This document shows positions 1 to 42,881 of a stretch of DNA of 64,000 bases, piece after piece. Source of the stretch: Stramenopiles sp. TOSAG23-6. Its lineage: Eukaryota; Sar. How positions within the stretch are numbered: position 1 is the stretch's first letter; each line of letters starts with the position of its first letter. The notes below the pieces were generated by a model. That model was not told the origin of the DNA and did not search any database. It worked only from the letters and a program-made list of their open reading frames with translations. The stretch lies in assembly GCA_900128565.1 (NCBI GenBank), contig LT635910.1, forward strand, positions 1-64,000. Reading direction: 5' to 3'. The translations under genes were made by a program, and so were the position numbers.

Positions 1-69
1 AAAGAGAAAAAAAAATTCATAAATAAAAAAAAAAAAATTCAATTTCAAATTTAAAAAAAAAAAACATAC
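1..69 (-). other. Partial family intron (donor side only)
   Basis: Exon 3 ends at 70 (GATTTTCT) and is followed by GTATGTTTTTTT. The rest is a T/A-rich run that leaves the window, so the core and acceptor are not visible. Confidence 0.55.
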
Positions 70-1162
70 AGAAAATCCTCAGACGATTTGACTAATAATG
101 GATTGGCTGCTACAATATTTCTTGTTGTATCAAGAGTAGTGTCAACTTTGATTTCATTATTACTAAGTTTCGCTGTATTTGTCTTGTTTGCTACATTTGA
201 GTTCTGAGTTGTTTGAGGTGTTTTCGATTCATCTTGAATTTTTTCTTCTGTTTGTTTCACTTCAAATACATTGGACGATTTTGTACCATCAGGTGTTGCA
301 TGTAATGTGAAAAAAAAAAAAATTTAACTTTTTTTTGTTAGGTACAAAATTTAGTATGAAAAAATTTTAAAAAAAAATTCAAAAAAAAATTCAAAACATA
401 CAAGGAAAAAGAAAATAATTCTACCTCCTGTGGGAACTCTAAATTCACCAACCAATGGATCATCAGAACTGCTTACAATCGTCCAAGGTAAAACATGCCT
501 CATTTTCCTTTTTTCACCGATAACTTTTTCAGCAAGTTTTGTAGCAGAAGTATGAGTGATAAAAAAGTATGTCAAATTTGATTTTGTTAGGTACAACATT
601 TTTATAAAAAACTATAAAAAAAAAAAAAAGAAAATTGAAAACAAAGTAAAAAACGTACAACTGATTTAACTCCAGCCGTCGCAACGACTTCAACAAGATC
701 GACCCCTACTCCACCAACAGCAAGGACTCCTTTTCCAACACCTTCAATACCATGTAATATAGATTTACCAACACTATTAGATCTTTCTCGCCCTGAAGAA
801 CTACTTGAGTATGTTTTTGTATTAAATTCATCTTGTCCTAAATCTAGACTTTCTGCTGAAAAGCGTGCAGCTGTCGACAGCACTGAACGTGCCTTAGATG
901 GCCGGAACTCAATAAGAACTGATAAAGTATGTTGTTGTGCAGCTATTCGCCAACGTATCGTATCTCCAGATATTACAGGATAAGCCTCATCGAAAGGTAT
1001 AGAATCACTTATAGTAATGCCATCACAATTTTGTATATCAACGTCAACTTCAAATCCTCGTAATAAATTGAAACCGTCAGATGCATTATTATAAAGTTCT
1101 TTGGGGTTCAAGTGACTTGAAACATTACCAGGTACTTTTTGATGCCTTTTTCGAAATGGCAT
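1..1162 (-). CDS. Unknown multi-exon protein, 3' part beyond window
   Basis: Three exons are visible: 659..1162 (168 codons, ATG at 1162), 402..548 (49 codons) and 70..299 (76 codons plus 2 nt); a third intron runs off the left edge. I do not recognise the family. Exon 1 starts with a basic MPFRKRHQK stretch, then a beta-rich region of about residues 30-110 that could be a small globular domain, a Ser-rich linker (TYSSSSSGRERS), and a Gly/Val-rich segment (about 140-165) that could be a membrane-associating or amphipathic stretch. Exon 3 is polar and probably disordered. Both complete introns belong to the repeated family described in the findings. The exon joins are phase 0 and keep the frame only when the 3' end is placed seven bases after CAC. 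It is divergent from the gene at 1674. The gene's existence is likely; its function is unknown. Confidence 0.6.
300..401 (-). other. Family intron, non-AG 3' end (102 nt)
   Basis: The donor is GTATGTTTTG, the core is TTTTGTACCTAACAAA, and the 3' end is a T run, TTCAC, then ATTACAT. The only AG between the core and this end lies 28 nt upstream, which would break the frame. Confidence 0.75.
549..658 (-). other. Family intron, non-AG 3' end (110 nt)
   Basis: The donor is GTACGTTTTTT at 658 downwards, the core is TTGTACCTAAC near 585-596, and the 3' end is ATCAC followed by TCATACT. The next exon starts TCT GCT ACA at 548. The first AG downstream lies within the next exon and gives an early stop, so a normal acceptor does not work here. 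Confidence 0.75.
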
Positions 1163-1673
1163 TTTTGTGATGGGAATGTTTCGTTAGGGTTGTAACGTAC
1201 TCTCCGTAGAAAAAGTGTTCTTGGGAAAGGACGACATTCAATCCATCGGAGATGTTTGGGCAAGAAAGATATTTTTTTGTAAAAATGTAACTGAAAAATA
1301 GATACCCGGTACTGCAAATGTAAATTTTCAAATTTAAATTTTTTCAATTTTCGAAATTGCAAAGAAATTCAAAAAATTGCTATATATAATATTATATGAC
1401 ATTGTTGTTGTTACTACTATAATACAACTATTGACAGTTGTGCACAATAACAAATAGAATCTGTATTTTATTACAAAAATAACAAAGACATGTGTAGTAT
1501 TACGACAATGTTGCTGACTAACCATAAACACCGCATAATATCAACAGATGTGTCAGAATAGAAATACCTGGTACCACTGCCATTAACTGTCCACAAACAG
1601 AAGAACAAAAAGATAAAGTATAGTCACTTCTACTATATACAATTATTAGAAGCCAAGCTTACAAGTGGTGAGC
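1163..1673. promoter_or_regulatory. Divergent intergenic region
   Basis: This stretch lies between two divergently read genes and presumably holds both promoters. It is AT-rich, and I see no defined motif, RNA gene or convincing small ORF. Confidence 0.4.
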
Positions 1674-2772
1674 ATGATACTCCTTTCAAGACCTGTGTTT
1701 TTTGTATATATTCTTTTTGTTGTTATGGAAAAATTTGCGTCATCTACAGACCCGTTGTCTACTACAATGTCAACTACAATGCCCACTACAGATGGTGGTG
1801 ATATTTCTAAAAGGCCTCAAAGGAAACAAAAACGTTTTGATCAATTTGGTAAAAGAATCAAAGGAAAACAAACAGAATCACAAAAATATGCTGAAATGGT
1901 TAGTTTGAATAAAATACCTGAGAAGAAAATAAATGAAACAGTTGACGATAAAACTAAAGAGATTACTGAAAAAAAAAAAACTGGAAAAAATGACGGAGAC
2001 AATCTCAAGAAAAACGATCCATATTTTAACTACTTTCACACGTCCAGTACATCCGGCAAATCAATTTCAGTACCATTACAACACTCAAAAACTTGGCTTG
2101 GTCAGTTTAATTTGGGTTCAATTCCAAAAAAGTCAAAAAATCGTTTATATACGTTTATCACAGGAGCTCAACCAAAAACTCAAGAAAATAGTTATGTACG
2201 ATCTTGTAGCAATTTTCCATATTGTTCAGAAATTCCACCACCACCTCCGTTTTTACCGAGCCCTTGGGAAATACCTGCAAGTGATCCACTTCCAATATAT
2301 CCTAGTTTAGCTTCAGCTCCAATTGGAAAACAGGATGAAAGGTTACTAAATGACTACATCAAAACTCTTCCTTTACCGAGGCAAGAAAAAATTGAAAAAA
2401 AAAGACAAAAAGCAAAACAGATGGGTAATGATGCTCTTAAGAATTTTATATTGAGGCAAGGAGCTTATCCTAATCCGGATAATTTAGATATGAGACAACA
2501 TGTATGTTTTATATGAATTTAAAAAAAGGTTTCATACGAAATTTCATACCTAACGAATTTTTTTTTCATAGAAATTAAATTTTTTTTTCACAATACATAC
2601 TCTTGATCCAGAAACGGAACAACTCTGGCGACGTTCATATTTATCCGGAGTTGCAGTTGATAAAACGCACCAGAAAGTTTTGAAACTTCGACGAGAAGGA
2701 GGAAAAAATGGACTTTGGAAGACGACGTCGTTTTTTGAAGGTTTAAAAAAAAAAGTCCCTTCTTTTCGATAA
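1674..2772 (+). CDS. Putative secreted proline/lysine-rich protein, 2 exons
   Basis: The exons are 1674..2501 and 2599..2772, together 333 codons plus TAA. I start at the ATG at 1674 because it opens a signal-peptide-like run (MILLSRPVFFVYILFVV); the in-frame GTG at 1665 is not a likely start. Next comes a Thr-rich spacer (STTMSTTMPTTDGG), a Lys/Gln-rich region of about residues 40-110, and a segment with CSNFPYCSE, two cysteines that could form a disulfide. A PPPPPFLPSP run and a charged Lys-rich C-terminal half follow. Exon 2 adds a TLDPETEQLWRRSYLSG segment and ends with KKKVPSFR. I do not recognise the family. The intron joins CAT to ACT in phase 0. An AG 27 nt upstream would also stay in frame and add nine residues, so RNA data are needed here. 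Confidence 0.6.
2502..2598 (+). other. Family intron, probable non-AG 3' end (97 nt)
   Basis: The donor is GTATGTTTTA. The core is TTTCATACCTAACGAATTT, preceded by CATACGAAA, so the core forms a near-palindrome. The 3' end is a T run, TTCAC, then AATACAT. The exon before also ends in ACAT, so a direct repeat flanks the 3' side. An in-frame CATAG lies 27 nt upstream. Confidence 0.65.
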
Positions 2773-7525: not shown

Positions 7526-8626
7526 ATGATTTCTCACTCACAGCAACCAGCACAAACACATCTGAATAAGACTGCAGTATTCACAAGTACTCAGAAAATG
7601 AATGTGATTACAGTTCTAGTTTCTGGTGGTGCCGGTCAGATTGCATATTCTTTATTACCTTTGATTGCCCAAGGTAAAGTTTTTGGACCTAACACAAGTG
7701 TTCACTTACGTCTTCTTGAAATACCCAGAGCGGTGGACGCTCTCAAGGGTGTTGCAATGGAACTGCAAGATTGTGCGTTTCCTCTTTTACTATCAGTTGT
7801 GTGTACGAGTGATAATGCTGAAGCTTTTACGGGTATTGATTATGCTGTTTTACTTGGTGGTTTTCCACGTCTACCAGGTATGCTACGTAAGGATCTCATT
7901 GAGAAGAACGTCGGTATTTTCAAAAACGCCGGTGAATCTCTTGAAAAGTATGCAAGTTCGAAGGTAAAAGTACTTGTAGTTGCAAACCCAGCCAATACAA
8001 ATTGTTTGTGTACTATGTGGTATGCCCCTTCAGTTCCACGAGAAAATTTCTCTTGTTTAACTCGATTGGACCACGAACGACTTCGGGGTCAAATAGTGTC
8101 AAAAATTAATGAAAATCGTAAAGAAAATTTCATTTCTACAAGTGACATTAACCATTTAGCTATATGGGGAAATCACTCAGCCACACAGGTCCCAGATGCA
8201 ACGTTTGCTACGATAAATCAAGATTCAAGACCTCCTCAAAATGTCACAAATGTTGTGAATAATGAGGCATGGTTTCAAGGCCAGCTTTGTGATACTGTGA
8301 GGAGTCGAGGGAAAGCTGTTATAAATGCTCGGGGAAAGTCGAGTGCTTTATCTGCCGCTAATGCCATTGGATTACATTTACATGATTGGTATCATGGCAG
8401 CCGTAGCGGTGACTTTGTCTCCATGGGTATTCCAACTGATGGTAATGACTACGGAATTCCTGATGATCTCGTGTTTAGTTTTCCTGTAGTTACATCTTCT
8501 ACTGGCAAAATTAATATTGTATCAGGTTTAAAGCTATCAAAATGGACACGGGAGCAGATTAAAAATACGGTGAAGGAATTGATTGAAGAAAGAGAAGCAG
8601 CTAAGGCTGTCATTTCTAAACTATAG
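7526..8626 (+). CDS. MDH: Malate dehydrogenase, cytosolic type
   Basis: Catalyses reversible oxidation of malate to oxaloacetate with NAD. The dinucleotide fold is clear: VLVSGGAGQIAYSLLP near the N-terminus. An MDH substrate loop is present with the motif GGFPRLPGMLRKDL, whose arginines bind the substrate. VVANPANTN is followed by TRLDHERLRGQ, and the catalytic histidine lies in IWGNHSATQVPD. The layout fits the eukaryotic cytosolic MDH family. The first ATG (7526) adds 24 residues before MNVITVLVSGGAG at 7598. That extension could be a weak targeting sequence, but the length of the core family favours 7598. Usual substrate loops have PRREGM where this has PRLPGM, a minor deviation. Single exon; ends TAG. 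Confidence 0.9.
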   Translation: MISHSQQPAQTHLNKTAVFTSTQKMNVITVLVSGGAGQIAYSLLPLIAQGKVFGPNTSVHLRLLEIPRAVDALKGVAMELQDCAFPLLLSVVCTSDNAEAFTGIDYAVLLGGFPRLPGMLRKDLIEKNVGIFKNAGESLEKYASSKVKVLVVANPANTNCLCTMWYAPSVPRENFSCLTRLDHERLRGQIVSKINENRKENFISTSDINHLAIWGNHSATQVPDATFATINQDSRPPQNVTNVVNNEAWFQGQLCDTVRSRGKAVINARGKSSALSAANAIGLHLHDWYHGSRSGDFVSMGIPTDGNDYGIPDDLVFSFPVVTSSTGKINIVSGLKLSKWTREQIKNTVKELIEEREAAKAVISKL

Positions 8627-13371: not shown

Positions 13372-13464
13372 TATTTTTTAACGTTTTTATGTACTATACT
13401 AAAACAAATCAATGATTAATAAATAAATGTTACAGATTTTTGTGCTCTCTTACTGTCCAAATTT

Positions 13465-15508
13465 CTACACTTTTGTTGTAAAATTAGACGGAAATGCGCC
13501 TTTATATCGTTCTAACTGAGTATTTCGTGCATTTTCTGAGAAGAGCTGTAAAATATCAGTCACAGATACATTCAAACCTTCGGAAGCTTTAGTTATATTC
13601 ACTCCGATCCACCATCCCTCGTCTGTGCCAGAGGTAGAAACTATTGCAATTTGATCTCCACGTGAAAAAGACAATTCATCACTGTGAACTGCCTCATATT
13701 CAAATTTGGCTGTTCTCAAATTATAGACAGGATTTTCTGTACAATACCCACTCATAGAAGTATCAGTCAAAGGTTTCATTGGTGATATTGGAGCTGTTTT
13801 CATAGCGCTATCAAACACATCTAACCCACTCATTGAATTCATTAAATCTGGAATATCTGGTGTATTATTAGGGTTAGGGTTAATATCTGGAGTATTTCGT
13901 CTCTTTTTGTTGACCAAACTTTCATTTTGAGTATTTTGAGTATTTTGATTATTTAGAGTATTTTGAGTATGTGGGTGTGGGGGGGAAGATCTATTATTTC
14001 CGTGATGATGTCCATATATTGAGAAAAAATATGTTTACAATTTGAAATTTGTTAGGTATAGAATTATAGATGTAAGACATACAAAAACAAAATTTGATAT
14101 TGAAAAGTACATGATGCCTTTTATGATCTGCGGGAGGCGGTGGGGGTGGTTTCTTTTTATGTTTCACTGGAATAGCAGGACGCGGTAGCACAGGTTTTAA
14201 CAATTGTGATGGGGGTGATGGAGGAAGTGATTTCTTATCATGATTATTATTTATATTTCTTTTGTATTGGTTGATTTGTTGAGGATTTTTTTTGTTTTGG
14301 TTGTTTTGTTGAGAATTTAAGTCACTCAATGAATGTTCTACATTTTTTTTCCCACCAGAGCTTGATGTATAACTACCATTTCTACTGTGTTTTGAATTAC
14401 TTTTTACGTTACTATATGCTGTAGAGGTTTCATGGAATGTTGGCATTTCAGAAGCTTGAATATCTGAAAAATTCTTCATTGTACCATGAGTGGAAATAGA
14501 CTGTATTTGTGGTATGTGCATTGCCTTACAGCTTGATGCCATACTACCAACTGTAAAATATCCATGACGTTGTTCCCATCCACTTGCTCTTGCTATATCG
14601 TGAATGGTTGTGTTATCTAAACTACCTGATTCAACACCAGCAGCTTTTTCGCATTGACCTGGGCCAAATTGAAGTTTGTGTTTATTTTCGTATAAAACGG
14701 AACCAGATAAACGTCTCAATTTTATCATGTGTAATGAATTGGGAGGTACAGTACAAGCACAATGTCTACCAAAACGTTGTCTTCCACTAGAAATATGATT
14801 TCTAATTGACGTGATAGCTTGTAGAGTGTTGCTCAATAATATAGGTGCATTTCTATCAACGGCTCTCATTTCCTCATAAAATCGATCTCGTACTGTTTTA
14901 GTTTTCGTCTTTAATGAGCTTATCTTACTTAATTTTATCTGATAGAGTTCCTTATCAGATGCAGTCTTTAGGTGGGATGGATCGTACTTTGGAGTATTCA
15001 AAAGTTCATATTTTTGAGCTGCCAAGTCGACCATTAGCTGTCTGAAATCTGAAGCACAATTACGAACCTTTGGGGCATGTCTCAACCGTTTACGTACAGG
15101 GCCTAATACAGCATCTTCAAAAAATACTTTAACAGGATCCATAATAGCATGGGAAGCAATCATCTGAGTTTCAATAAATTGTTCTAGATCTGACTGTGAA
15201 TATCGAAGTTGTGTTGAAGGTGCACGATCACCGTCAATAGCATCTTCTCGACAAAATGGTTTCTTCAATAAAGGATATAGTTGCACTAATCGTTCAGTAA
15301 CCTTTGATTCAGCTTGTTCAGCTTCCTGAATTTTAACCCAGTAGTCTTCTAGCGAAGAGTGTAATAATTCAATCTCGCGAACGAATTCTTCGTATCTGTG
15401 TGAGTCTTCCTCAAACTCTACATCCACAGTTTTTTCAGTCACCCCAATCTTTTCACGCAACTTTTGTTTCATAGCGCGACGCCCGTCACTTGTAAACATT
15501 TTAAACAT
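13465..15508 (-). CDS. BAR-domain and SH3-domain protein (endophilin/amphiphysin-like)
   Basis: Exons 14111..15508 (466 codons) and 13465..14013, 648 residues in total. The N-terminal half (about 1-240) has the heptad-rich, charged helices of a BAR domain (EELLHSSLEDYWVKIQEAEQ-type helices, then a helix with VFFEDAVLGPVRKRLRH). BAR dimers bind curved membranes. The middle is disordered and Ser/Asn/Gln-rich and ends in a KKPPPPPPADHK proline tract. The C-terminal SH3 domain has ALYDY-like AKFEYEA, then DELSFSRGD, DEGWWIG and FPSNFT, all typical of proline-motif binding. Together they suggest a membrane-trafficking or endocytic scaffold. The intron falls in the proline/His region and is a family intron. 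A telomere-like TTAGGGTTAGGG lies in the coding sequence (13868-13880). Confidence 0.82.
14014..14110 (-). other. Family intron, non-AG 3' end (97 nt)
   Basis: The donor is GTACTTTTC, the core is TTCTATACCTAACAAATTTC, and the end is a T run, TTCTC, then AATATAT. The exons join CAT with GGA CAT CAT in phase 0. The nearest AG downstream (AATAG) is out of frame. The 3' motif here is TTCTC instead of TTCAC. Confidence 0.7.
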
Positions 15509-19936: not shown

Positions 19937-22900
19937 ATGAGTTCTCTTGGTCAAGATAAGTCTACGCGCTTCACTCAAGAAAATAATGAAGCTTTAGAAA
20001 ATTCAAAAAGTGAGCGATTGATCAAACATAAAAAACTAATCCACGACGTTATTCATGACAATCATAAAAAAAGAAAATATAAAACAAAAGGTTTGAATTC
20101 CAATCCTCAGCGTAAAGATATCTACAACTTCTCAGAGTCAATTTCATATCTTGAACCAGACACAGTGGATTCGAACACTGTGGCCGCAAAAAAAGTCTCA
20201 AAGGGCTACACTAAACGAAGTCAACTTCCCTTATTTTTCTGTGCAGTTTTTATTGGTGCAATAGTGGCTTTATTTATTCATCTTGCAGAAGAAACTTTTG
20301 AAATGATTCAAGAGTATCGTTCTGAAGTCACAAAGAAAGTACTCTCTGATGGCGCAAATATCTTCGTAGTGTGGAGCTTGTGGGTGGGCTCTGGCTTAAT
20401 GTTAGCTCTTACGGCTGTTATTTTGGTCCTTTGGCAACCATCTGCTGCATCATCGGGAATCCCGGGTCTAATTCAATATCTTAATGGCTGTGTATTTTTA
20501 ACTTTTTCACATTAATTTTTCAAAAAATATTTTCTCATACAAGTTACAAGTTTTATTCATTCATTGTACAGTTGAAGTACAATTCCACTATATAGATTCC
20601 GACAGCAGGTGTTAACATTTTTGGAAACGTTGCATTTTATGATAGTTTCTATTTATTGGTTGCAAAATACATTGGAATGTTATTTGCAACACCATCAGGA
20701 CTTGCTATTGGACCAGAAGGTCCTATTATTCATATTAGTGCAATCATTGGAAAATTTTGTTGTGCCTCTTTTCAAGCATTTGAACAATATATGACAAAAA
20801 AAGATTTTGTTATATCACCAGCAGAATTAAGAGATTTCCTTGGCTGGTGTTTTCTTTGTTGTTGAAGAAGCCAGTTCATGTATTACAGTTACTTTCATGG
20901 AACTTATATTTTGTGGAACTTTAGTAGCTTATTGGGTATCAAATTTTCTTGATGGTATCACTCAGGGGGCAGTAATGTTTCCAACTCCCACAGGTCCTAC
21001 ATGTGGTAAATATGATCACTATGATATACTTCTATTTATTGCTATGGCTGTAATTGGTGGTTGGTTAGGTGCTGGATTTAACGCAATTGTTGAGTATTGT
21101 ACTAAATTTCGTATTCATTATGTTAACAAGAAAGGAGTATTTCGTGTTCTCGAAGTTATTTTTCTTGTTATTTTAACAGGTACATTTGCCGTTTTTCTTC
21201 CATTAGATTTTGAGTGTAGAGTTGCATCACGTGATTTGCTATTTCGTGACTCTTTGGGTTGTTTGAATACAAAGTATAAAAAGTATATCTCTTCAGGTGA
21301 AATAAACTCAAATATTGCTTGGGATATGATCGAGGGTCACAAAATTATCAAATATTTGAAAGATGGTAAAGAAGAATGGAAAGATCCAGCAAAAACAGTT
21401 AAATGTATAAATGATAATTCAGGTAGAAACAAATCGGCTGTCGACAATTTATGGAAAAATTCAAGTAAAAAGGGGGAGAAAGCAAATGGAACAGGTGGAA
21501 CAGAGCTAAAGATTTCTAATGATACTTGCAAAGATTTGTTGAAAACATTTCGCAAAAGTGCCCGAGCTAAACCGCTTTCAAAAAAACATGAAAAGTATCA
21601 ACGAGTCGTACGTTTGGAAATTGCATTGGGTTTGATCAATGCAATGAGTATTGGTTGTAACACAAAGCAGTTGAATAAAGCTCTTTCAAAAGATGATCCT
21701 ATAGTATCGGCGAAAAGAGGGAACAGGTATATAGCAGGAAAACAGAAAAGTGGGGGAAATATTGTATCAGCAAAAGAAAAGAAAGATAAAGCGAGTCTTT
21801 CCTTTATTAGTCTGGCTTCTGGTGTAGCCAAAGCTGTTGATAAAGAAAAGTATGATGGGTATAAGGTAAATCCTGGTATTTTGTTTTGCGAAGAAGGATA
21901 TTTACATGCAGATACACAACTTATGATACCTAATCGTGAAGGGTTTTTTAAAAAAGGTGAGAAGCAAGAACATTATAGACATGATATCTTTGAATTAGAA
22001 AACAGTCATGCTTTTTACTGTGAAGAAGAGTCTAATGAATTCAATGAAATGGCGATGCTTTGGTTAAATGGAGGGAAAGTGGGTCTGAAAAGTCTTCTAC
22101 ATCGAGGAGTTCCTCATCTTTTTACAGTTGAAACCCTAATGATATTTTTTGTGTGTTACTTTTTTATGGCTGGATTGACAGCTGGTACATCTGTACCAGC
22201 TGGGCTTGTTGTACCCATGTTACTTATTGGAGCAAGTTTTGGTCGAGCTTGTGGCATATTAATCGCTAGTTTTAAAGAAGGTTTCTGTGTCAGCAATGGT
22301 TTGAAATACACAGATTTGCCGGATACAAATGGTGATAGTTTTTTTTGGAGCCTGATTGTGCGCTACAAAGTCCATGATTGTGGCGTTTTAGATCCTGGGT
22401 CGTATGCTATTATTGGTTGCGCAGCTTTTATGGGTGGCTCTGGTCGAATCACAATGTTTCTTGCTGTGGTTTTGTTGGAATTAACTAATGATATATCTCT
22501 TTTTCCTCCAATGGGACTTGTTACAATTATCGCAATGTTAGTAGGAAATATCTTTAACGGTGGATTGTATCATTCACTTATGCATTTGTTGAGTATTCCC
22601 TATTTGCAGGGTGAACCTTCAATAATTACTAAAATCATTCCAACTTCTTGGGTGATGGCTACACCAGTAATGACATGTAAACTAAGAATGACGAAAAACG
22701 AATTAGAAACTTTACTATCTAATAATGACCATAATGGCTTTCCAGTTTGTGATGAAAAAATGAACCTAATTGGCTTCTTGGAAAGAAAAGCAATCCGCAG
22801 TGCAATTCAATACGCCAGAATAACTTTTAAAGATGATAAAACCCCGAAGGTTGATATGGCAAATTTTATGGATTTATCACCCATTAGTGTGAACACACAT

Positions 22901-23765: not shown

Positions 23766-26700
23766 TTATACCCAAGAAGCCCAGCCATGATACATAAAAG
23801 CATTTTTTTCAGGATCTTTTGCTTCATTTATAAGCCTAGCGACATGCCCAGTGATGCCTAGAGTATCGCCATTTTGCTCTTCTTGACCCAAAAGTTTTTG
23901 TTTGACTCTTTTTAAAACTCTCCTAGACATCAAATTTGAAACGTGATTTGTTTTCTTATTAGATGTTGTTTCGATATTTGTGTCTGTTACTTTTAATTCT
24001 GGTTGTGGAGATACAGCAATACTCTTCGCTATAATATTTGAATTATGAGGATTATGAGCAATACTTAAAGACATAGTATGCGAACTCTGAGTCTGTTGAA
24101 TTGTATGGCAATCGTCTGGTGTCTGATCATGTTGTAATCGTAATGCTTCTGGTCTTGTCCGTGCCCATTTATACAATAGATTGTGAATAAATATTTCATA
24201 CATTTGAAATTCGTTAGGTACAAAACCAAAACATTGGATTTTTTTTGGAAAAAAAAGAATTAAAATTCATGATGAAAACGTACAAGGATCATGAATAAAT
24301 ACTTCTAAAATGGTTAATATAATATCTCTATTTTTAGCATCCCGGAGAACACGAAGTGACTCTTCACAACATCTTCTAAATGTTCCTTCCACACCAGTTA
24401 CACCCATGCCATCAATTATATCTCTTGTTAAACGAAAAGGAACAATTTCAGGTGTTGGTAATTCAAGTCCCTGTTCAAATACAATACCAAAATCTATATG
24501 TAAAACTTCTGCGGTGGAATTATCAATTAAAATATTCTGTGTGTGACGATCACCGATACCTAAGATATGACCTACCATACTAGTTGATGCTACAGATCTA
24601 GTGTACGTCATACGTTTAGCATACCACATACCTGTAATGTGAATATATATTTCAACCATTTGAAATTCATTAGATATATATTCCTACAATTGAATAATTT
24701 GAACAATACATTTAAAAAATACATTTAAACAATACATTTAAAATAAAAAATGTACATACTCAAAAATAAAATATAGGTATGGAATTTTCTAGACAACAAT
24801 TAAATAAATTCAAAATTCAATGAATAATTAATACGTACAAGGAAGGGGAAAGTTTTCTAAAAAGTAATGATGCAACACAGGTTGAAAATGTGCACAAATT
24901 TCATTAAATGTTTGAATTTTTAATTTTCTCTTTTTTGGATCAATTGAAGAATATTTTTTATGACATTTGGCATATGTCCAATCTGATGGATTCAATCTAT
25001 TGTGAGCACTATCGACATTTCGCCAAAGATAATCTGCTAAAGTTGCTGTATTCTCAACCCATTCTATGACACCACTATTAGGTGATAGAGGTACTACACG
25101 ATATGTCCGAATACGTAACTCTCTCGTACGTGAATTTGGATGTAAACAAAGCAATTCATTAACTACACCGAACACTTGTTGCATAATCGCATCTCCCTTT
25201 AAATCATCTTCTTTAACTAATTGTTTATAACGATGACCATCTGATCCAATGGCTATAACAACTTTTGGTTTATGAATTCCACTTGGTCCTAATACAACAT
25301 TCTCTTCGAAACCAATTATTCGTGGAACATTAGAATAATCACCAGATTGTCTAACATTTAAAGGAGCAGTAAATACTACAGGATTGGACTGATTCTGTGA
25401 AGAAAGTCGAAGATTTTTCCAACCATTTTTAAATTTTTTCACAACTCCAGGTCGAACAACTCTTTCAGTATGACGATGTACAGACAGAGCTAAATCCATA
25501 TATGTATTTGTAAGAACTTTAACCATAGTTACAGTCTCTCCTAAATCATTACGTCGAAGTCGGTCTAATAAATATTTTGCTGCATTCACTTTTTCAGGTT
25601 TCACACCTTCAAATGTTCTTTTCAATTCATCCGTAACTTTTCCACCTCGCGTAAGGGCTAATAATACAGGTAGAGTATGATGGGGGTGATGTACTGCACA
25701 TCGATATACTAAGGTCTGTAATGATTTCTGAAAACGAGAATTAATATTTTCATAATCATCTTTTGTTGATATAGTATCAGTATGTTGCATCTCCAATCTT
25801 GAAGCTAATTGATAAATTAATGGTACAAACCTATAACTTGGAACATCATTCGCAATAGCATCAAATTCAGCAGCTACTGAAGTCAAAGCATTTACACGTT
25901 TTACTCTTTCACTATGATTTTCTATTGTATTATTTTCATTCATTTCTTCCTCACAACGTGACTCAAAAGTAAACCACATATTACACACACGTGACACAAC
26001 TGCTAAATCATATTGATCAGTTTCAGAATGTTGTAAGCATAGTCGATATTGTTGTAAAGTTTCCTTCATGTAACTCCAAAGTGAAACTTTATCAGCAATT
26101 TGCGATTTAGCCAAGGTTTTTAAATTCCTTTTCAATTCACGAACATATATGCATTGTGAAAAAATATTTTACATTTGAAATTCGTTATTTTTTGTAACAT
26201 AACTACAATTGAAATCATATAGGAATATGAACGAAAACAAATATAAATTTGAAATGAATGTAAAGTTTTTTTTTGGTATGAAATTTTGTACCTAACGATT
26301 AAAAAAAAAGGATCAAAACGTACTTTGCTATTTCTGCATTTCGTTTTGTATGTGCAAGTTTACTTTGCTTTTGCTTCTTTTGACTTTTTTTTTGTGTCTT
26401 TAGAAGCGTTAATTCACGAGTTGCTTGTAAAGAAATATCTTTCATAATTAGTTCACAACGCGCTAATTCTTTTAATTGTTTTGTGTACGTCTCCTGCCAA
26501 TCTTGCCATTCTGGAGAATGAACTTGTACATCAATCTTTTGATATAACTTATCTAAATAATCTGCGAGTCTAAAATGGACATTTCCCAATAGACTTTGAC
26601 AATTTGTTCTATTATAATAATCCAAATTATTAAAATTATCTATATTATACTCTTCTGAGTCAAAGTTCGTTTTCACATTTTCTAATAATTCAACTGCCCG

Positions 26701-29700
26701 GCCAAGATAATCATCTTTTATAATTTGAGAACTCACGCGACTTGTTGCTGCTAACCACATTCCTGTAGTCGAAAGAACATCAATTAAAAAGAGATTTCCT
26801 GTTTTAGTTGAGGTGCGCGATAGATTCATTAATTTTATTAAACCTTGTGCAATACTTATCGCGCGTCTTTTATCGTTCATATCCCAAGAACATTTAGCTT
26901 CCAGCATTAACCATTTCATTCGTAAGTTTTTAGAAATACATTTTGATGTATCTTCAGATGTAGTCACTACTGATCGAGCACGTCGAAGGTAATTCATTGC
27001 CAAATGAGGAAATCCAGCCTTACGAGCCAAAAAGGCTGCATTACTTAGGTGTCGCTGTAGTAAATCAAAACCTGCATCACCAAACGTTCTAAGGAGAACT
27101 TCTCTTACACCAATTAAAGGCTGGAGAAGTTCAAAAACATCCACTCCAATTTGTTTATTTTTCATTTCCCAGTTTTGAACTAGTTTACTTAAATTTGTAC
27201 TTAATTTCGTACCTAAAGAATTTTGAATTTGTTGGGTACCACATTCCTCCATTAATTTCTTTACAGCATTAATTTCATAGACACATTGTAACTGTGACAT
27301 TGCAGAATATACACATTTTTTATCTTCAACTGAAGCACGACCATTTATCATATTTGATCCATGAACAGCATTGAAACTTTTTATAAGAAAGTTTTCAGCT
27401 TTTTTTATTGATATCGCATACATATCATCATTACCTGTCGCTACAGACCGCAATACATGAAAGAGACACTGATGCAAGCCCCAATCTGATACATTAGAAT
27501 TTCGAAAGTCTTTTACTATTGTTTGTTCCGATTTATATTTTTGAGTATTTTTTGTATTTTCAGTTGTATTTTTAGGGTTAGGGTTTATCATTTCATCATT
27601 TTTATAATCATTTGAAATCCATAAATTAGAAGGATCATTTCGCCAATGAGAACACAAATACGCTGCTTCAAAATGAATTTCAATTAATTCTTTCGATGTA
27701 CGTGTGTCTACTTGGCGTGCATATGAATCGAGGTATAAACCAATTGTATGATATAAACTTTGACATTTCATTGTTTTAATTAGAGATAAGTATCCGTTGG
27801 ATCCGTTGGAACAATTATCTATACTATTATTTGTTGCATGAGTACTTCTGGAATACATATCTCTACCACGTTGTTGTAGCATTGTATCAAATATTGATAA
27901 ACTGTGAGATTGATTCGTTTTAATTCCAGATGTTACATCGCCACATACTCCAGCTATACCATCAGGATCATTTAAGCCTCTATACGATTCTTCTAATAAA
28001 CGTTTATAAATAGGCAAATTCTGATTATCTTCATATACACATTCTAATCTAGAAAAGTGAATATCAATATTTGAATCATCATCAAAATGAAAAATTGAAG
28101 AATTACCAAAACTTTTGTTTTGTAATAATTGTTTCGATTCTGGTAAGTCATGCCATAATTCAACATAAAATAATGCAGTCAAATACAATTTACAACGTAA
28201 TGATGCTTTTGCAATGAGTAAAGGATCTAAGGACAATGAATACAAGTATTGTGAAAAAATATTTTTTTTAGTAAAAAAAAATGTTAGGTGCAATATTTTG
28301 TATGAAAAAAAGTGTAGGTAAAAAATCCAATTTTGAAAAACGTACAATTTTCGTGAAATTCTACGACGTTTTTGTTTTTGTTTTCTTCTATCATTTTTAG
28401 AATTTTGAATTGATAATTGATGAGCAGCGACAGAGTGTTGATGAAGTACTTGTATAGTAGATAGAATAAGTCGAGCAGCTTGAGTTGGCACAGAAATATC
28501 TTCAAGCAAGTTTGTGACCCATAAAGATAAATCATTAATTATCTCTGGATTATTCAACATGTTTAAGACACATAATGGAAATGCGACAGATGCAAAATCT
28601 GCTTTGAGTCGCGACAAACCTGCCGCAGCTTTTAAAAATGGATCCATAACAAAATGACTTGATTTCGCTAAATAAGTTACTCTACATATCCATGTTTCAT
28701 AAGACTCTCCACTTTGAATAGTCCACGAATGCTGCAACATTCGATAATAACTTTTATATTCGTGTTTGTTTTCAGTATTTTTTAAATTTCCTGTGTCACA
28801 AGTAAACTGATTCTTATCATGTTTAAAATGAATAAAAGGGAGTAAATGTTGTTTTGTTAAATCATCTAAAAAATTCATGGCGATTTTCCCACTGTCCGTA
28901 GAAAGCATACCACCGATAGCATACGCTGCTGTGCTAATTACATTTGGATCTGGATCGACTAAACAGGCCTCAGCACTACGAAGTAATTCAGCTTTTGCTT
29001 GAATTAATAAATATTCTTCTCCTAAAGTCTTAATAGTATTACTATTCTTTTCATTTTTGTTTGATGAAAAATTATTGATAGTAGTACAACCTACCAAAGA
29101 GATAATACTTGGATTTACTGTACCAATACATCCTAAACAGCGTGCTGCTAATGATTGCAAAATATATGACTGATCAGGGGAAGTAAATGAAAGTAAAGCG
29201 CGTACAAGGGTATCCATATCAGAAGATATATTATTCTGTGATTTTTGCGATTTTTGAGCTTTCTGTGATAATAAATAAACTAAAGCAGCTGAATGATTTT
29301 CTAAAGTAGATAATAAAGTTTGTAAAGGAAAAATCGCATTTGACCCGTGAAACGATTTTGAATGATCCAAAAACGTTCGCAAAGTTCTTTGAAGAGTTTC
29401 AACTTGACATAATTTTGTATTTGATGAATTATTTAGTGTAGACTGAGAGACCTTCTCATGAATAACAATAGAATTAACGCTTTTACTAGACGATGATGAT
29501 TCTTTAGTGTAGTCTTCATTAGCACTTTTACTAGACGATGATGATTCATTACTATGTTCTTCATTCATTTTTACTATGTACCGTAAATCATCTACTAAAG
29601 ACTTAATTTTATCCATATCAGTAGAATGTAATACCACATCCACATTTGTTGTTTTCTTTTTATTACTTGTATCAATAGTATTTAATTCGAAACAAATACT

Positions 29701-32700
29701 AAATGCGGCAATGAGCTCAGGAAATCGCATTAAAAAGAAATCAATACGTTTTAGTAATAATAGATGTTTTCTACTCAAGGATGAATTGTTTTTGTTTTTA
29801 CTGTAGCTATCTTTCAAATCATTGATTCCAGAACGGTCTAATAAGAGTTGTACTATAGTACAGCACACAAGACAATGACGTTGTTTGTACGTACGTAGAA
29901 TATGTAGTATAATATGTACAATCATACGAATTGTCGCAGGCTCTACGGAGATACTTCCAAGTAAATCGATACAAAGTTCAAATGATTGTAGTAATCGATT
30001 AAGAATATAAACATTATCACATTCATGAATGTTTTTGTTCATCAGTAAAAGAACTTTCTCAGTATTTGCACGTTTTAATAAATCTTCTGGGGTTTGTTTA
30101 GATTTATGTCTACTAGCAAAGTGAACAATTGCTTTCCGGACACTTTTGATATTTACTAACGCAAGCGTACCTGATTTTTCTAATGCAGCGACAGAAAATA
30201 ATCTATTGATTAACCCCAATGTTTGTTTTGGAGTACACAAGCCATTCATCATTTTAGATACTGAACCGTATATATTGACTAACCATTTCTCTGCTTGTGT
30301 CGCCAATTTATGATCTGTTGGAAGTTTGGTGAAATAAAGAGGTAGAAATGAACCGACTATATCACCTAAATTTGCATCAATAAATTGGCAAATTGCAGAT
30401 TTCAGTATATTTGAATCACTTTGAATAGAAATATTTTTCATATTAATTGATCCTTGTAAATGCATTGCACTTACTAAAAGTTTTATACGCTCCGCGTTTG
30501 AATTTCGTACAATTAAAACTGATAATACTACAGGTAATGCTCCACAATGCTCTGATAAAAAATTGTTCCAACTACTCGTTCCCATTAATGATATTGGGAA
30601 CGATTCTATAGATGCATACTCTTCAATCCAACGAAATAAAATATATTCGAGATATTCTTGTAGATATTCCTGAGTATTTTGAAATCCCAAAGAAGTAGCA
30701 ACACGTGAGAGGATACATGAAGTACTACACTCAATTTCTGGAATACAATAAAATGTACACAACTTATATAACGAATCTCGTCGGTGTTCAAGTACTTTAC
30801 TTCTTTTAGCGACTTCACCAAGTGTTAATAACCCGGTAATACATTTATTGTTTTGATTCATATCGTCATTAGATGACTCATCTTTCTTAGTTTTGATTCT
30901 TGGCATTATACATTCAATGGATTGATCTTTTACTAACACAGAAAACGACTCAACTTCAGTTAATAAAGGTATTACGCTAGATGCAACATGACGCACGGAA
31001 TATTCATTATCTTGCAATAATTTACACGAAATGACTAAAAGCAATTCACCAAACTCACCAGGGGCAATATAAAACCAAGGTATAAGTGTAATTAACCACA
31101 ATCGACGAACTATCGAGTTACGCCAACTTTTTTTATCTTTACCCACAAATTTTAATAAAGCTTCCACATTAGCTAAAATATTATAATTATTTTGATCACT
31201 GGATGAAGTAACAAAAGAAATAGTAGTCGTATTTGAGGAATATAACATCATACCAATATGATATAGTAAACAAAGCAAACGAGACTGGATTTCTGGATGG
31301 CCATGATATTCAGACATAACTAAACGAAATATTTCTAAAATGTCATTTAATCCAAATCTACGTAGATTTTTTTTAGTACAATGATAATGAATGATTAAAT
31401 CACATGCACAACCAATACAAGTCAATGCTATCACTGGGTTTGCAATGAGTTTGGGATTTTTTAATATTTGGCGTATTTGTTGTATTACATTTTTCACTTT
31501 TAAAATTTTTAAATCTTGAATATTTTTTGATTTACTTTTACTTGATTGAGTTTCTTCATCTGACGAATAAATACATGTCATTATTGTGTTACATTGCAGC
31601 ATCAAACAAGTACACATACAAAGTTCAATAATATTATTTGACCCATTGATGACTTGAAGCATGTTTGTTCCCGAATGAGTGACTTGACTACAATACACAA
31701 CCGAACAAGACGCTAGAAGGTCTAATGAAAATAATTCATCTACCTTTAACATTCTTTTTGTTCTATTATTATATTCATTTTCAACTCTATTTTTTCCATT
31801 ATAATTTTCTGTATCAATATCATCCTCATCACTATCGAAGCCACCGCTGCAACTTCTTTTTCCAGATAAATTCATTTCAAAAGACTGATATGATGTAGAT
31901 TGTGTTTGTTGCATTGTTTTCATACACAAATCTATATGCTGTGTTAACCATTTTAATATACAGTTTACATAATCTTTATTCTTGTACACTAGACTACTGC
32001 TACATTTTTCAGTATCCAAAGAATTTGAATTATGATCAACATCGTTATTGACAAACATTCTAGACGATAAATATATTATGGTAGAAGGATCCATAGTGAA
32101 TGATTCATCATACTTTGTTACATTTTGATTATTTGATGTATCACAAAATTTTCCCAAACAAATGGTCATAAAACGTTTTACTCTAGCAATCAATTTGAGA
32201 GTATTTTTCAATGCCGTTTCACATTGAGAACGTTTTAACGAATTGACCAATGCATTTAAAACCTTTTTCATTGCACTTGTTGAAGAAACAACAAAAGCTG
32301 TAATTCGACAAAATGTTTTCATACTAAACTTCTTACCTAAATCCTTTTTTACATTATTCTTATCAATGTCCATTGATTCTTTCTTATCTGTTGAAGAGTT
32401 TTCTACATATTCCTCATAATATTGTTGAAGTTCTATAAATGATGCATTTACAGTATCAATAACCATTGATACAAGCACACGTTGTTGTTCTATTGTAACT
32501 AAATTCATACTTACAAACGTTGGAACATTTGGACAATTACCTAAAGGATCAGCATTTGGCAAATTCGAAATTGAATCTGTACCTAATTTCGTACCTAACG
32601 AATTTCTAATTTGTTGAGAGTCATCTACTGTAGTGTCATATTCAAACATATGATATAATGGATTAGTACTAAATAACACGTTCTCAGCATTTGAAATCCA

Positions 32701-35289
32701 CTTTTTCATGCATACATCAACAGTTTTAATTTCGGGGAGATTTTCATAGTAATTTGAATTGTTCAATTCTGTTAATGATTTTTGAACTTTTGTAGATGGA
32801 ATGATGAAATAACCTTTCAAACCACCTACTCGAAAGGCATCTAATGTGCATTTATTCCATACATCACTATATAGTGATTTTGATATGAGTTTTTCTATAT
32901 TTGTATTTTCAGTATTTCTTTTTTTTTGAGTATTTTGGTTACAACTGGGACATACTAATGAAATTATATCAGCTATAAAGAATTGTAATCTCTCATGCAC
33001 TTCAACATCAGATTGAATACACTCTTTAATACTAAGATGTGTATCAAAAGTAGTTATCATTTGGTTTTTTATCACTGTATTAAACCACTGTAAAATCTCA
33101 TATAAAATACATTCTCTTTGTGAATTCGGATTAGAATTTTTACGATTGTGAGTTGATCCAATTGTTATACTAGTATTTCCCATACCATATAATTCAGCAA
33201 CATTTAGAAAAGCAGAGGTTATCCCAGTAAATAAAAAACTTTTACTATATCGTGTTCTTTGCGTAATTCCAGAATTACCAGAATTTAATAGTAATATATT
33301 CCAAATATTATTCTGAGTTCTAGATATAAAATGATTTGAAAATATACTATTATTTAAATGTAAAAGTTCACATATGATTTTCACACATAATGAAATGATG
33401 CCTGTTGCATTAGAAGTCTTTGATATCTGAAGTTTTCCTATACATGAACAATATATTTGTTGCCAAGAATTAATGATTGAACACATCACTTTTTTTTTTG
33501 TACGTTTTTTTCCACAAAAGGATGAATTACTTGTGTTATTTATATCAAATGTAATATTTTGTTTTAGTTTTACTTGACATAAGGCATAGATACAACGAAG
33601 TATCCAAAATGTTTCCATTGCAGTTGACTTTTCAGTATCTATCGCAACAAAACGAGAACAGAGAATGGTGATAACATTTTCATATCTTTTTGTAAAAATA
33701 TTTGAAAACATTTCAGGAAAACGAGAAATAAAGTATGTAAGTATTCTTAATGTTGTTATACAATCAATATTACTCGTGGTTGCATCATGTACAGTATCAA
33801 ATTGTAATGTATGTATCAGTTTTTCCAGAGGAGATATTTTTAGTATTGTCTTCATTTTTTTTTTGTTTTCTTGACTCTCTTCAACAGAATATGATCTTTT
33901 TCTTTTATTTGAAATTGAATCTGTAACAAATCCAGACGTTTCCGTACCAAACGAAGTTCGAATTTGCTGAAAACCACCTTCAGTGTTTATGTTCTCTACA
34001 TTTTCAATATTACTTTCTATACGTATTTCTCTTTGGTTTATATTTTCCAAAAACAAATGATGACAATGATATATTAATTCACTAGCTAACATTATTATAA
34101 TACTTTCATTGCGTGGTAAATTATAAATTCGAGTACCTATTGATAATGACTTTGATCGGAGAGAACGTTTCATTGTAATACCTAAAATATCTCCATTACA
34201 TTTGACATTCTGGATTTGCTTACCCAATACAATATGTTCATATAAACGTATTAATAATGAACTTCTTATATTTTTGTTATTTTTGTTGATATGAATTATT
34301 GGATCGTTCCAATGCAATCCACCACAAGTAGCAGGAGCCTTTGAAATACAAACTTGTATTCTTGAATTACGTAAATGAAGTAAAAATAACATAGTAATAC
34401 ATTGTTTACTCCCACTGTGCTTTGGTAAATTAGGCCAAACCCGGAGACAAAAATTGAGAATACCATAGGAATATCTTCGATATGATTGAATAGATTCAAT
34501 AGGGAATCGCTGAAGTACGATACAAATACAATTTATAACTTCTGTGACAGTTGCATTATCATTATGATTACGATTATTAAGCCACGAAGTAACTGTAGCT
34601 AAGACAATTGGTAAATATTTTACAACTACTTTAGAATTTAGAAAATTGCTCAGTAGTAAACAGACAATACGAAAATGTTTCACATCGGAAGAACAAAAGT
34701 GCTTATCCCGGATAAAGCTAAGAAAAGAATGCATCAAATTTCGAAATACACGAGGAGATAATTTACCACAATATTGACATTGTAGTAAAAGTACACGTAG
34801 TATATTGCATGTACTATTATGTAGCTTCATATTAGTCTCTTCCGCATGCAAAATGCGTTCACAATTTTCAAAAATTTCACCAACAACTGAAAGTAAAGCA
34901 GAACCAGGGAGAAAATCTTCAGCTTTTCGAATAACTTCACCAAGTAAATCTTGATCATACTGGCCGCCACGTGAGCTCACAGGTTTCTTTCGGCCTTTTG
35001 ACTCAGCAACTAAATAGTCTAAAATATCTCCGACGAGATCGGCCCACGAAACTCGAATAGACTCTCCTGTCCTTGAATTTTCATTATCAATCAAACGATT
35101 AGCCTCTTTTTGTTTGACTGAATTACGGTTTAGTAAATTCACATACCGTCCATTATTTGCACGAATATAAGAAAATATAAGTTTTTTTCCCTCTTTGCGA
35201 TCAGTTGCTTTCGACGACACAAGCTTAATAATAGCAGAATTAAGAGCGTTCAGTAGTCGATTATTCTCGCGGCGCAAAGCATCCCCCAT
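23766..35289 (-). CDS. ATM: ATM/Tel1 DNA-damage kinase, five exons, about 3,643 aa
   Basis: Exons 28346..35289, 26324..28243, 24839..26148, 24284..24631 and 23766..24175 add to 10,932 nt, exactly 3,644 codons including the stop. ATM senses DNA double-strand breaks and phosphorylates SQ/TQ sites. The C-terminal kinase is unmistakable: [20 protein letters not shown] with the ATP-binding Lys, NFPLP and [19 protein letters not shown] (as ATM), catalytic [11 protein letters not shown], and HIDFG. The FATC domain ends GWASWV at the stop, the ATM-type terminus. The first two exons are a helical repeat solenoid plus the FAT region, with many Ser/Asn-rich disordered insertions. Three coding segments derive from the intron-core repeat. 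ATM-specific features ([35 protein letters not shown]) separate it from ATR and TOR. Confidence 0.95.
24176..24283 (-). other. ATM intron 4, family type, non-AG (108 nt)
   Basis: The donor is GTACGTTTTC, the core is TTTTGTACCTAACGAATTTC, and the end is TTATTCAC then AATCTAT. Joining gives HDP-LYKW, as in ATM (YDP-LFDW). No AG acceptor nearby keeps the frame. Confidence 0.8.
24632..24838 (-). other. ATM intron 3, family type ending AG (207 nt)
   Basis: The donor is GTACGTATTA and the end is ATATTCAC then ATTACAG. Joining CCTT with GTATGTGG gives PCMW, matching the conserved ATM position. A three-fold AAATGTATTnTTTA-like tandem repeat makes this one longer. Confidence 0.78.
26149..26323 (-). 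other. ATM intron 2, family type with a second, inverted core (175 nt)
   Basis: The donor is GTACGTTTTG and the end is TTTTTTCAC then AATGCAT. The sense core is a variant (AATAACGAATTTCAAATG). The first half carries another core in the opposite orientation (CGTTAGGTACAAAATTTC), so the intron looks like one repeat with another inserted. An AG 20 nt downstream would also keep frame. Confidence 0.7.
27191..27240 (+). repeat. Exonic core-type repeat, copy a
   Basis: TACTTAATTTCGTACCTAAA in the plus strand is inside ATM coding sequence and encodes, on the minus strand, [15 protein letters not shown]. Confidence 0.75.
28244..28345 (-). other. ATM intron 1, family type, non-AG (102 nt)
   Basis: The donor is GTACGTTTTTC, the core is TTGCACCTAACATTT, and the end is TTTTTTCAC then AATACTT. 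TTGTA occurs both before the donor (including the first bases) and after the end, a possible target duplication. The nearest downstream AG is out of frame. Confidence 0.78.
32567..32616 (+). repeat. Exonic core-type repeat, copy b
   Basis: Contains AATTTCGTACCTAACGAATT on the plus strand, identical to the strongest intron core but antisense to ATM. It encodes [18 protein letters not shown]. Confidence 0.85.
33911..33969 (+). repeat. Exonic core-type repeat, copy c
   Basis: A diverged copy with GAAATTGAATCTGTA and CCGTACCAAACGAAGTTCG. It encodes [19 protein letters not shown], alignable to copy b. Confidence 0.75.
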
Positions 35290-35765
35290 TGTACCGAGTG
35301 AACAAAAGCACTCGCAAAAATAAACTTGTTATTGTATCAATAATACAACATGAGTAAATTGAATATGGTTGGTTGGCTTGGGGTGGCAAGAGTGTTAATA
35401 ATATCAGAAAACTTGGCCGAACTCTCGCTTCTCCTCGCTTCGTTCATCAAAATGACCGAGCTGGGTTGAAAAAAAATCGAAATTATTTCGATTTCGTGTT
35501 TCAAAAATTATTTCTTTTTTTTGAAATCAAAAAAATCATCGTCATCGACTCATCATCGTGTGCCTCTATTTTTTACTCTTCATATTATATAATCTTCCTG
35601 CACATTGAAATTTCACCATTGCAGAATTACACCTCTTAGATATTTGCCATCTGCATCGGATTATATAATTAAGTCCAAATATTACTTTGGATACTGGCCG
35701 GCTCAATCATATTTGGAGAAGAGTTTCTGTGAGAGGTACGAATCTAGTGTTCACTAAGTTCTCTA
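35290..35765. promoter_or_regulatory. Divergent intergenic region upstream of ATM
   Basis: Presumably holds the ATM promoter and that of the small gene at 35766. ORFs in it use weak starts and low-complexity sequence. No motif can be named. Confidence 0.35.
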
Positions 35766-40917: not shown

Positions 40918-41244
40918 TTTGGAAGAAATTAGACCGTTGTAGTGTGCTACAGATGTGTTCGAAGTGCGTTCGAAGTTGTCCCGACCTCTTCACTTGAAAC
41001 TACTCGATGCACACTGACTTTATTCTGGAGAAAAACGCATTTTCGTACTTAAAAATCCGTACCAAAAAAGTGGAGAATTCAAAATTTCAAACACGTGTTA
41101 CATTGATGATGTCTGTGAGTCTGTCACGTCGACTGGTCACTCGCACTGGCCAAGTGATCCAGATCCACTGCTGGCCAACGAAAATTGGAAGGTTGATGAA
41201 AAAAAGTTATCTCAAGATTATACAATAAGTGCAACAATCCCAAT
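40918..41244. promoter_or_regulatory. Divergent intergenic region with a core-like fragment
   Basis: TTTCGTACTTAAAAATCCGT at 41041..41060, followed by ACCAAAAAAG, resembles part of the intron core. The stretch probably holds both flanking promoters. A small ORF here is not convincing. Confidence 0.35.
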
Positions 41245-42881
41245 ATGTTTCCTGTACATACATGTAGACGCTTCTTTTCTTCACCAGCTGTCCGTGAAAG
41301 GAGCGTTGATTTTGGCGATATTGTACGTGCAAGTTCATACTTTCGCGAACAAGCTTTCATTGGTGGTACATGGGTTGATAGTACTTCGGGTAACAGCTTT
41401 GATGTAGTCGACCCTGCTTCTGATGAATATATCGGAAGTGTACCGGATATGAATGCTAATGATACTGATATTGCCATTCGTGCTGCTGAACATGCTCTAC
41501 CCTCCTGGTCTAGAAAACTTGCGAAAGAACGTTCTGCAATTCTTGAAAAGTGGCATGATCTTATGCTACAAAACAAGGATGAGCTGGCTCAGATTATGAC
41601 ACTGGAATCTGGTAAACCCCTTGCTGAATCCATTGGTGAAGTTGTTTATGGTGCATCTTTTATAAAATGGTTTGCGGAGGAAGCAAAAAGAGCTTATGGT
41701 GATATCATACCTGAACCTTTATCTGGTCGAAAACTATTGACAGTGAAAGAACCAGTGGGAGTATGTGCTTTTGTGACACCATGGAACTTTCCTATTGCAA
41801 TGATCACACGAAAAGCTGCCCCAGCACTTGCTGCTGGATGTGCCTTTGTTGTAAAACCCTCAGAGGAGACCCCTTTTAGTGCTTTAGCTTGTGCAGCAAT
41901 TGCAGAGGAAGCAGGTTTGCCCCCTGGATTATTTAATATAGTAACATCATCGAGAAAAAATACACCTGAAGTAGGTGAAGTTCTTACAAATAGTAAAATA
42001 GTGAAAAAATTTTCATTTACTGGTTCAACAAAAACAGGAAAAATATTGGCTAAGCAATGTGCTAATACTGTTAAACGCGTATCCTTGGAGTTAGGTGGAA
42101 ATGCACCATTTATAGTATTTGATGATGCTGATATAGATGCAGCTATTCAAGGCGTTATGTACGTTTTCATCATGAATTTGAATCTTTTTTTTTTTTCGTA
42201 CTACATTTCGTACCTAACAATTTTTTTTTTACTAAAACGAAAAATATTTTTTCACCGCACATGGATTCTAAATTTAGAAATACTGGACAAACTTGTGTTT
42301 GTGCCAATCGTATTTATGTACATGATACTATATATGATGAATTTGCTGATTTGTTAACTCAAAAAGTAAAGTCTATGCCTGTGGGTCATGGTGCTGTTAA
42401 GGGTGTATTATCAGGGCCTTTGATCAATAAGAGTGCTTTAGAAAAAGTTGAGGATCATGTAAGTAATGCTGTAAAGTTAGGTGCAAAAGTCTTAACTGGA
42501 GGTGATAAACATATTGCTGGTGATAACTTTTATATCCCTACTGTTCTCTCTGAAGTAAATCAAAATATGAAAATAGCAAATGAAGAAACATTTGGTCCTG
42601 TAGCTCCATTATTTCGCTTTTCTAATGAAGAAGAAGTTATAACTGCAGCTAATAATGTTGATTCTGGACTTGCAGCATATTTATATTCAAGAGATATTGG
42701 ACGAGTTTTTCGAGTTTCTCAAGCTTTAGAATATGGAATGGTTGGTGCAAATGCTGGTGTTATATCATCTGAAGTTGCTCCATTTGGAGGAGTGAAAGAA
42801 AGTGGTTTAGGTAGAGAAGGTGGAAACATTGGTATGGATGAATTTATGGAAGTGAAATATATTTGTTTAGGTGGGTTATAA
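41245..42881 (+). CDS. ALDH5A1: NAD(P)-dependent aldehyde dehydrogenase, SSADH-like
   Basis: Exons 41245..42158 and 42263..42881 total 511 codons, in frame. It probably oxidises succinate semialdehyde to succinate (GABA shunt); the family match is best to SSADH. Evidence: a basic mitochondrial-type N-terminus (HTCRRFFSSPAVRER), the TPWNFPIAMITRK motif, catalytic Glu in LELGGNAPFIV, catalytic Cys in RNTGQTCVCANR, and a C-terminal PFGGVKESGLGREGG typical of this group. The intron joins GTTAT with GGATTC, giving GVM-DSKFRNTGQTC, where SKFRN is a conserved stretch. The nearest canonical AG would remove that stretch. Divergent from the carrier gene. Confidence 0.88.
42159..42262 (+). other. Family intron in the aldehyde dehydrogenase gene, non-AG (104 nt)
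   Basis: The donor is GTACGTTTTCATC, the core is ATTTCGTACCTAACAATTT, and the end is ATTTTTTCAC then CGCACAT. An in-frame AG acceptor exists 17 nt downstream but would delete five conserved residues. Confidence 0.78.

Follow-up and report, generated by a model that had tools for sequence, protein, structure and literature searches.

An introner family with predicted non-AG 3' splice sites in an uncultured stramenopile

Few signals of eukaryotic genes are as constant as the AG dinucleotide at the intron end, to which only a few large-scale exceptions exist. We describe here a family of short intron-forming elements, with donor GTAYGTTTT and most often ending in AT, that was noticed in the first 64,000 nucleotides (nt) of contig LT635910.1 (assembly GCA_900128565.1) of Stramenopiles sp. 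TOSAG23-6; this whole stretch is called the window. Several known systems resemble the family in part, as described in the accessible sections of the respective reports. Introners in general are short intron-creating copies with target-site duplications and short inverted ends, in which the duplication partly supplies a splice site; the families described have GY/AG splice sites, and an AT-ended family is not mentioned in those sections (PMC9860276). The introners of Amoebophrya A25 and A120 are repeated, transposon-like introns with non-canonical sites in most introns, supported by RNA-seq, and they carry hairpins of 8-20 nt inverted repeats, direct repeats of 3-5 nt at exon borders and, at both ends, dinucleotides in many combinations (PMC7789003). 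Hairpins have also been described for the non-canonical introns of diplonemids (PMC12621601). In Fritillaria borealis, the 3' ends of non-GT/AG introns are read by duplicated U2AF subunits while the core spliceosome is preserved (PMC13326754). In yeast without Prp18, CAU and UAU are the best non-G acceptors, and upstream poly(U) favours their use (PMC10711555).

The stramenopile element has the features of introners generally that are listed above. It resembles the Amoebophrya introners in its repeated, transposon-like copies, direct repeats at exon borders and predicted non-canonical splice sites, but differs from them in its constant GT, its 2-base-pair (bp) duplication, its lack of a consensus structure and its single dominant non-AG end; the ends are related by a short inverted repeat only, and not by paired repeats of 8-20 nt. 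As in F. borealis, non-canonical ends occur genome-wide alongside a conserved core spliceosome; there, however, the donors change too, whereas the stramenopile family has a normal donor, and the U2AF2-like protein found resembles its counterparts in other stramenopiles. The CAU/UAU acceptors and upstream poly(U) recall Prp18-less yeast, which also retains the yeast core spliceosome, but in the mutant these are alternative sites used beside YAG, whereas here hundreds of introns apparently use them as their regular acceptor. The element thus behaves as an introner and has the introner features tested, is not of the Amoebophrya hairpin type, and lacks the AG of a canonical U2-type intron.

We consider it probable (about 0.8) that the family is an introner with a 2-bp target-site duplication and its own spliceosomal signals that is spliced at a non-AG end by the host spliceosome. 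A short non-autonomous mobile element would insert into genes and create a 2-bp duplication, mostly AT. The element would bring the donor GUAYGUUUU, the branch site CUAAC, a poly-U tract and the 3' end CAMAAUAC, which the duplicated dinucleotide would complete. The host spliceosome would then excise the element together with one copy of the duplication, accepting a non-AG end that is usually CAU or UAU, so that the mRNA would be as it was before the insertion. The family, its duplication, the reading frame, the junction homology and the sense orientation were computed here, and they point to actual splicing at the motif end, presumably by the U2 spliceosome.

The window corresponds to contig 368 of a partial assembly of 8.03 Mb in 408 contigs from an uncultured stramenopile. 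Its malate dehydrogenase (MDH) shares 94% identity with EukProt protein GSMAST32.ASY1.ANO1.1329.1, and the best match of its SSADH is number 1333.1 of the same set. From the name of this set and the accessible text of a MAST-3 single-cell paper (PMC5778133), the source is taken to be a MAST-3-like stramenopile, a free-living, single-celled marine organism related to brown algae and water moulds. A literature search, mostly of records without full texts, returned no description of introns of this kind from MAST-3. The MAST single-cell paper (PMC5778133) uses neither "splice" nor "splicing" in its main text, and the Incisomonas paper uses neither of these words nor "intron" in its own.

The sequence-only reading of the window pointed to a genome-wide search with the donor, core and end of the family, and this search gave matches beyond chance. 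The pattern GTAYGTTTTN{20,50}GTACCTAACGAATTT had 83 matches and GTACCTAACN{20,50}TTYCAMAATACAT had 660, with none for either reversed-pattern control; because copies on duplicated contigs are included twice, these are not counts of distinct copies. Many similar introns therefore lie at different positions in genes. The strict pattern had no match in viral contigs and three in prokaryote genomes, which by eye had no GTAYGT donor in the 90 preceding bases. For detailed analysis we parsed 71 sequences (the window and 70 loci; 282,512 bases), chosen for matching the family and hence not a sample of the genome. In these, 126 cores were accompanied by both a donor and a 3' motif, and 122 remained after removal of duplicates; the end statistics used the 119 with a clear 3' motif, three weak 3' motifs having been left out. 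The parser placed the intron end by motifs and not by frame; where a core had several donors, the one with the longest upstream frame was taken, a slight bias for the test of orientation. Copies have a median length of 96 nt (range 74-167), and the median best-match identity among them is 0.886 (n=111; copies containing N and long copies were omitted from the identity and folding tests, which used 111 or 108 of the 119).

The ends of these copies are rarely AG. After AATAC, the 812 genome-wide matches continue with AT in 660, AG in 17, AC in 22, AA in 17 and another base (C, G or T next) in 96, so that AG is no commoner than AC or AA among changed last bases. In the parsed copies the last three intron bases are CAT in 80, TAT in 15 and CAG in 2, the last being the sole AG ends among the 119. 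Of the 17 AG-ended matches, the nine with a parsable donor (eight of them distinct) keep the frame when joined at this same point. The AG-ended copies at L074, L083 and L085 apparently start with GCACGTTTT, GTGCGTTTT or GTGTGTTTT rather than GTAYGTTTT.

The last two intron bases match the exon bases that precede the donor. Exon and intron ends agree at the last base in 108 of 119 copies and at the second-last in 97, more than in any of 2000 shuffles, whereas agreement at the third base (34/119) was reached by 499 of the 2000. As AT dominates, exons not ending in AT were considered apart; 15 of these 39 agree with the intron end, compared to a shuffle mean of 1.9 and a largest value of 8 in 20000. 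The element proper is therefore GTAYGTTTT...CAMAATAC, followed by a 2-bp target-site duplication, and since the last two intron bases are the duplicated target site, excision restores the uninterrupted gene. Common descent accounts for a regularity on which the sequence-only reading had built a measuring rule, namely that the intron ends seven bases after CAC. The triplet at -10 is CAA in 47 copies, CAC in only 46, CAT in 8, TAC in 7 and another in 11, so CAC does not set the end; its spacing is constant because the copies descend from one element ending in CAMAATAC plus the duplication. A fixed distance from the branch site was considered as well and ruled out, as the branch A lies 31 to 108 nt (median 38) from the intron end.

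Removal at the motif end preserves the reading frame. Of the 122 parsed copies, 32 had ambiguous flanking frames and were left out, and 86 of the remaining 90 are in phase at this position (55/56 under stricter limits and 93/102 under looser ones). The first AG, in comparison, is in frame in just 25 of 119 copies, and in 41 of 119 an AG lies between the branch site and the end and would have to be skipped. Frame determines the end only modulo three, so the exact position was tested by homology. Against a profile of 119 SSADH homologues, the window gene scores 818.9 bits when joined at the motif end, 813.9 at -3, 811.8 at +3 and 795.4 at the AG at +15. We also tested eight of 24 prepared introns, picked for their recognised domains, by cutting each to 42 residues on either side and joining these at each junction variant. 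One of the eight, in a DEAH helicase, matched no Pfam family at an E-value of 0.01. Over the seven families matched, the summed scores were 354.1 bits for the motif end, 313.5 for -3, 295.6 for +3 and 184.6 for the first AG. Six families peak at the motif end among the four junctions, and Helicase_C scores 0.2 bits higher at -3.

These results bear on the possibility that the introns are ordinary GT-AG introns, with a nearby AG as the true acceptor and proteins that merely differ from those of relatives, as the published gene models assume. The published SSADH model does join 42159 to the AG that lies 15 nt past the proposed end. That choice costs 23.5 bits and drops conserved residues at the junction; it is the sole AG within -30 to +45, and relatives keep the dropped residues, in agreement with the claim that the nearest AG in SSADH removes conserved sequence. 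Taking the first AG costs 169.5 bits over the seven Pfam families, with the Lyase_1 match lost altogether, and the AGs that precede the end in 41 copies would be encountered first. The published models for SSADH (P0121; window 41641-42414) and MDH (P0001; window 8088-8266) cut seven GT-AG pieces in total, by a mapping of boundaries that preferred AG where ambiguous. One of these is the real SSADH intron with a wrong end (42159-42277), and the other six, of 24-51 nt, lie inside open conserved frames, four in SSADH and two in MDH. Ordinary GT-AG splicing is thus improbable, and the earlier claim that the AG rule does not set these 3' ends stands in that most ends are non-AG and AG choices fit frame and homology worse, although its proposed alternative of distance from CAC does not.

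Several observations nonetheless weigh against non-AG splicing of an introner, and the first two of them also favour a GT-AG acceptor. AG is under-represented from the branch site to the end, with 45 occurrences compared to 90.6 in mononucleotide shuffles of copies that are not independent, and it could be that AG still matters. Some diverged introns have AG at the same place: 24632-24838, the CLC intron, argininosuccinate lyase intron 1 and, when the scan was loosened, six of 99 in-phase candidates. Four of the 90 testable copies are out of phase, as are 24 of the 123 candidates of the looser scan. The intron-side copy is AT in 19 of the 27 unequal duplications, so the end is not purely a remnant of the duplication; it is as if AT were favoured at the intron end. 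A search of the partial assembly for Prp18, made without a positive control, found nothing, and small nuclear RNAs were found neither with models of U2 and U6 nor with two patterns of their cores, a result that is uninformative for a partial assembly and models lacking a positive control.

The signals within the copies look like those of a spliceosomal intron. GUAYGU, CUAAC and a stretch rich in U all serve as signals to the spliceosome, and a T-rich stretch precedes the CAT and TAT ends. GT is constant in 119 of 119 copies, with GTAYGTTTT in nearly all, and a CTAAC-like branch site is present, partly by construction as donor and branch site both belong to the search motif. U12-type introns have a ATATCCTT or GTATCCTT donor and a TCCTTAAC branch site; the donor of the family is not of this type. 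In 117 of 119 copies the longer flanking frames are in sense with the element, an orientation that agrees with excision at the level of RNA but not of DNA.

A second alternative is structure-guided, non-canonical removal, in which a hairpin of the intron ends joins the exons and sets the junction, as has been proposed for the Amoebophrya introners and the non-canonical introns of diplonemids. The ends, (AT)GTAY...RTAC(AT), form short inverted repeats, and on average 4.6 pairs are expected to join the first 20 bases to the last 25, compared to 2.25 in shuffles. The fold z-score falls below -2 in 19% of 111 copies, but its mean is just -0.87. RNAalifold predicted no pair and no consensus structure in 108 copies, and covariation in end pairing was absent from these, as re-dealing the 3' ends left the pairing unchanged. 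In 39 of the 108 a C at +4 faces an A at -6, and duplications of TT or GT remove the outer pairs. We therefore regard this alternative as quite improbable, and the earlier suggestion that RNA structure might set the 3' splice site did not hold up.

A third alternative retains splicing and moves the cut two bases leftward at both ends, giving NN...AC introns, mostly AT...AC. Such AT...AC introns exist elsewhere, and in the 92 of 119 copies with equal duplications the mRNA is the same, so that mRNA and protein cannot separate the two cuts. GTAYGT, however, is a good donor only as the start of an intron. In the few cases that can be scored among the 27 copies with unequal duplications, the 5' copy of the duplication fits better: Lyase_1 scores 48.9 compared to 47.2 bits and Aldedh 43.8 compared to 40.0, and in the DEAH helicase the 5' copy gives Gly, which we take to be invariant at this position, where the alternative gives Asp. 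The leftward cut is accordingly very unlikely.

The weakest alternative, that the copies are eliminated from DNA as in ciliates, whose eliminated sequences resemble them in two-base duplications and short inverted ends, or that they are artefacts of single-cell amplification or assembly, as contigs with one copy in both orientations (like amplification chimeras) and contigs ending inside copies might suggest, is highly implausible, because a sense orientation in 117 of 119 copies is not needed for DNA removal, the donor, branch and poly-U signals would be left unexplained, and copies with different flanks are in the correct phase. Contigs C19, C21, C37 and C43 have their first bases inside copies, so the assembly is broken by these repeats. 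The loci L046 (1591 on -) and L054 (1563 on +) have an identical upstream exon frame and intron start and different 3' parts, which suggests recombination, an amplification chimera or misassembly inside a copy.

If an introner with non-AG ends is spliced as we propose, the host would recognise the ends of its introns in an unusual manner. The donor and branch site look normal and the 3' end alone differs, which isolates the question of what reads the acceptor. Given the CAU/UAU acceptors of Prp18-less yeast and the 80 CAT and 15 TAT ends among 119 copies after a T-rich stretch, we propose relaxed proofreading at the second step, as in yeast without Prp18, as a hypothesis for the cause; this is the weakest step of the explanation. 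More speculatively, and in a form that may well prove wrong, a free-living eukaryote with a normal spliceosome may no longer need AG. Second-step proofreading would have relaxed because Prp18, or a protein acting with it, was lost or altered; CAU and UAU would thereby have become regular acceptors, and a transposon with a 2-bp duplication could form a seamless intron at any site in a gene. A Prp8 stretch of 617 residues aligns with human Prp8 without interruption, so the core spliceosome looks normal. At L091:1480-1564 the Prp8 frame shifts beside ambiguous bases, probably through a sequence error. The U2AF2-like protein at L093:1105-3069 has, in place of the arrangement RRM1-RRM2-UHM, two domains like RRM1 and a UHM-like domain at its C-terminus. 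By eye, P0250 (Ectocarpus) and P0248 (MMETSP) share this layout, which is thus not peculiar to the lineage, and a divergent U2AF2 was rejected as the cause. The family illustrates a route by which a transposon could create introns while leaving the mRNA unaltered and with no need for AG at its target. It would also mean that GT-AG-based gene models of this lineage are wrong, with those of SSADH and MDH as the checked cases.

In the window, the nine introns reported by the sequence-only reading lie at the coordinates it gave (two on the + strand and seven on the - strand); all begin with GT, and the claimed end keeps the frame in nine of nine cases. Its count of seven non-AG ends was too low, as eight lack AG and only 24632-24838 ends in AG, and CAC stands at -10 in eight of the nine. 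On the - strand, 300-401 is an introner copy (GTATGTTTT...CACATTACAT; in-frame end AT), and 549-658 is a diverged copy that fell under the parser's 3'-motif score (GTACGTTTT...CACTCATACT; in-frame end CT). The copy at 2502-2598 (+; GTATGTTTT...CACAATACAT) has the in-frame end AT and follows an exon ending in ACAT. In the BAR/SH3 gene, 14014-14110 (-; GTACTTTTC...CTCAATATAT; in-frame end AT) is the copy with CTC in place of CAC. The ATM-like kinase gene (-) contains four: 24176-24283 (GTACGTTTT...CACAATCTAT; in-frame end AT), the longer diverged 24632-24838 (GTACGTATT...CACATTACAG; end AG), the longer 26149-26323 with a core in inverted orientation (GTACGTTTT...CACAATGCAT; in-frame end AT), and 28244-28345 (GTACGTTTT...CACAATACTT), whose in-frame end is TT, as is the end of the preceding exon. 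In the SSADH gene, homology fixes the end AT of 42159-42262 (+; GTACGTTTT...CACCGCACAT). Of the five introns said to have no in-frame AG nearby, 549-658, 300-401, 14014-14110 and 28244-28345 indeed have none within 45 nt, whereas for 24176-24283 two AGs, 27 and 30 nt downstream, do keep the frame. The CLC gene intron at 20492-20595 (+; GT...CACTATATAG) reads through in frame and, as had been described, runs from GT to AG with CAC seven bases before its end, the same spacing as in the family; by eye it has no core motif, and it is possibly an old or unrelated intron.

The ATM-like frame at 26299-35328 (-) also contains three similar peptides, for example at 32591-32605 and 27209-27239. Two of the three are encoded by an antisense match to the element core, as though fragments of the element had turned into coding sequence.

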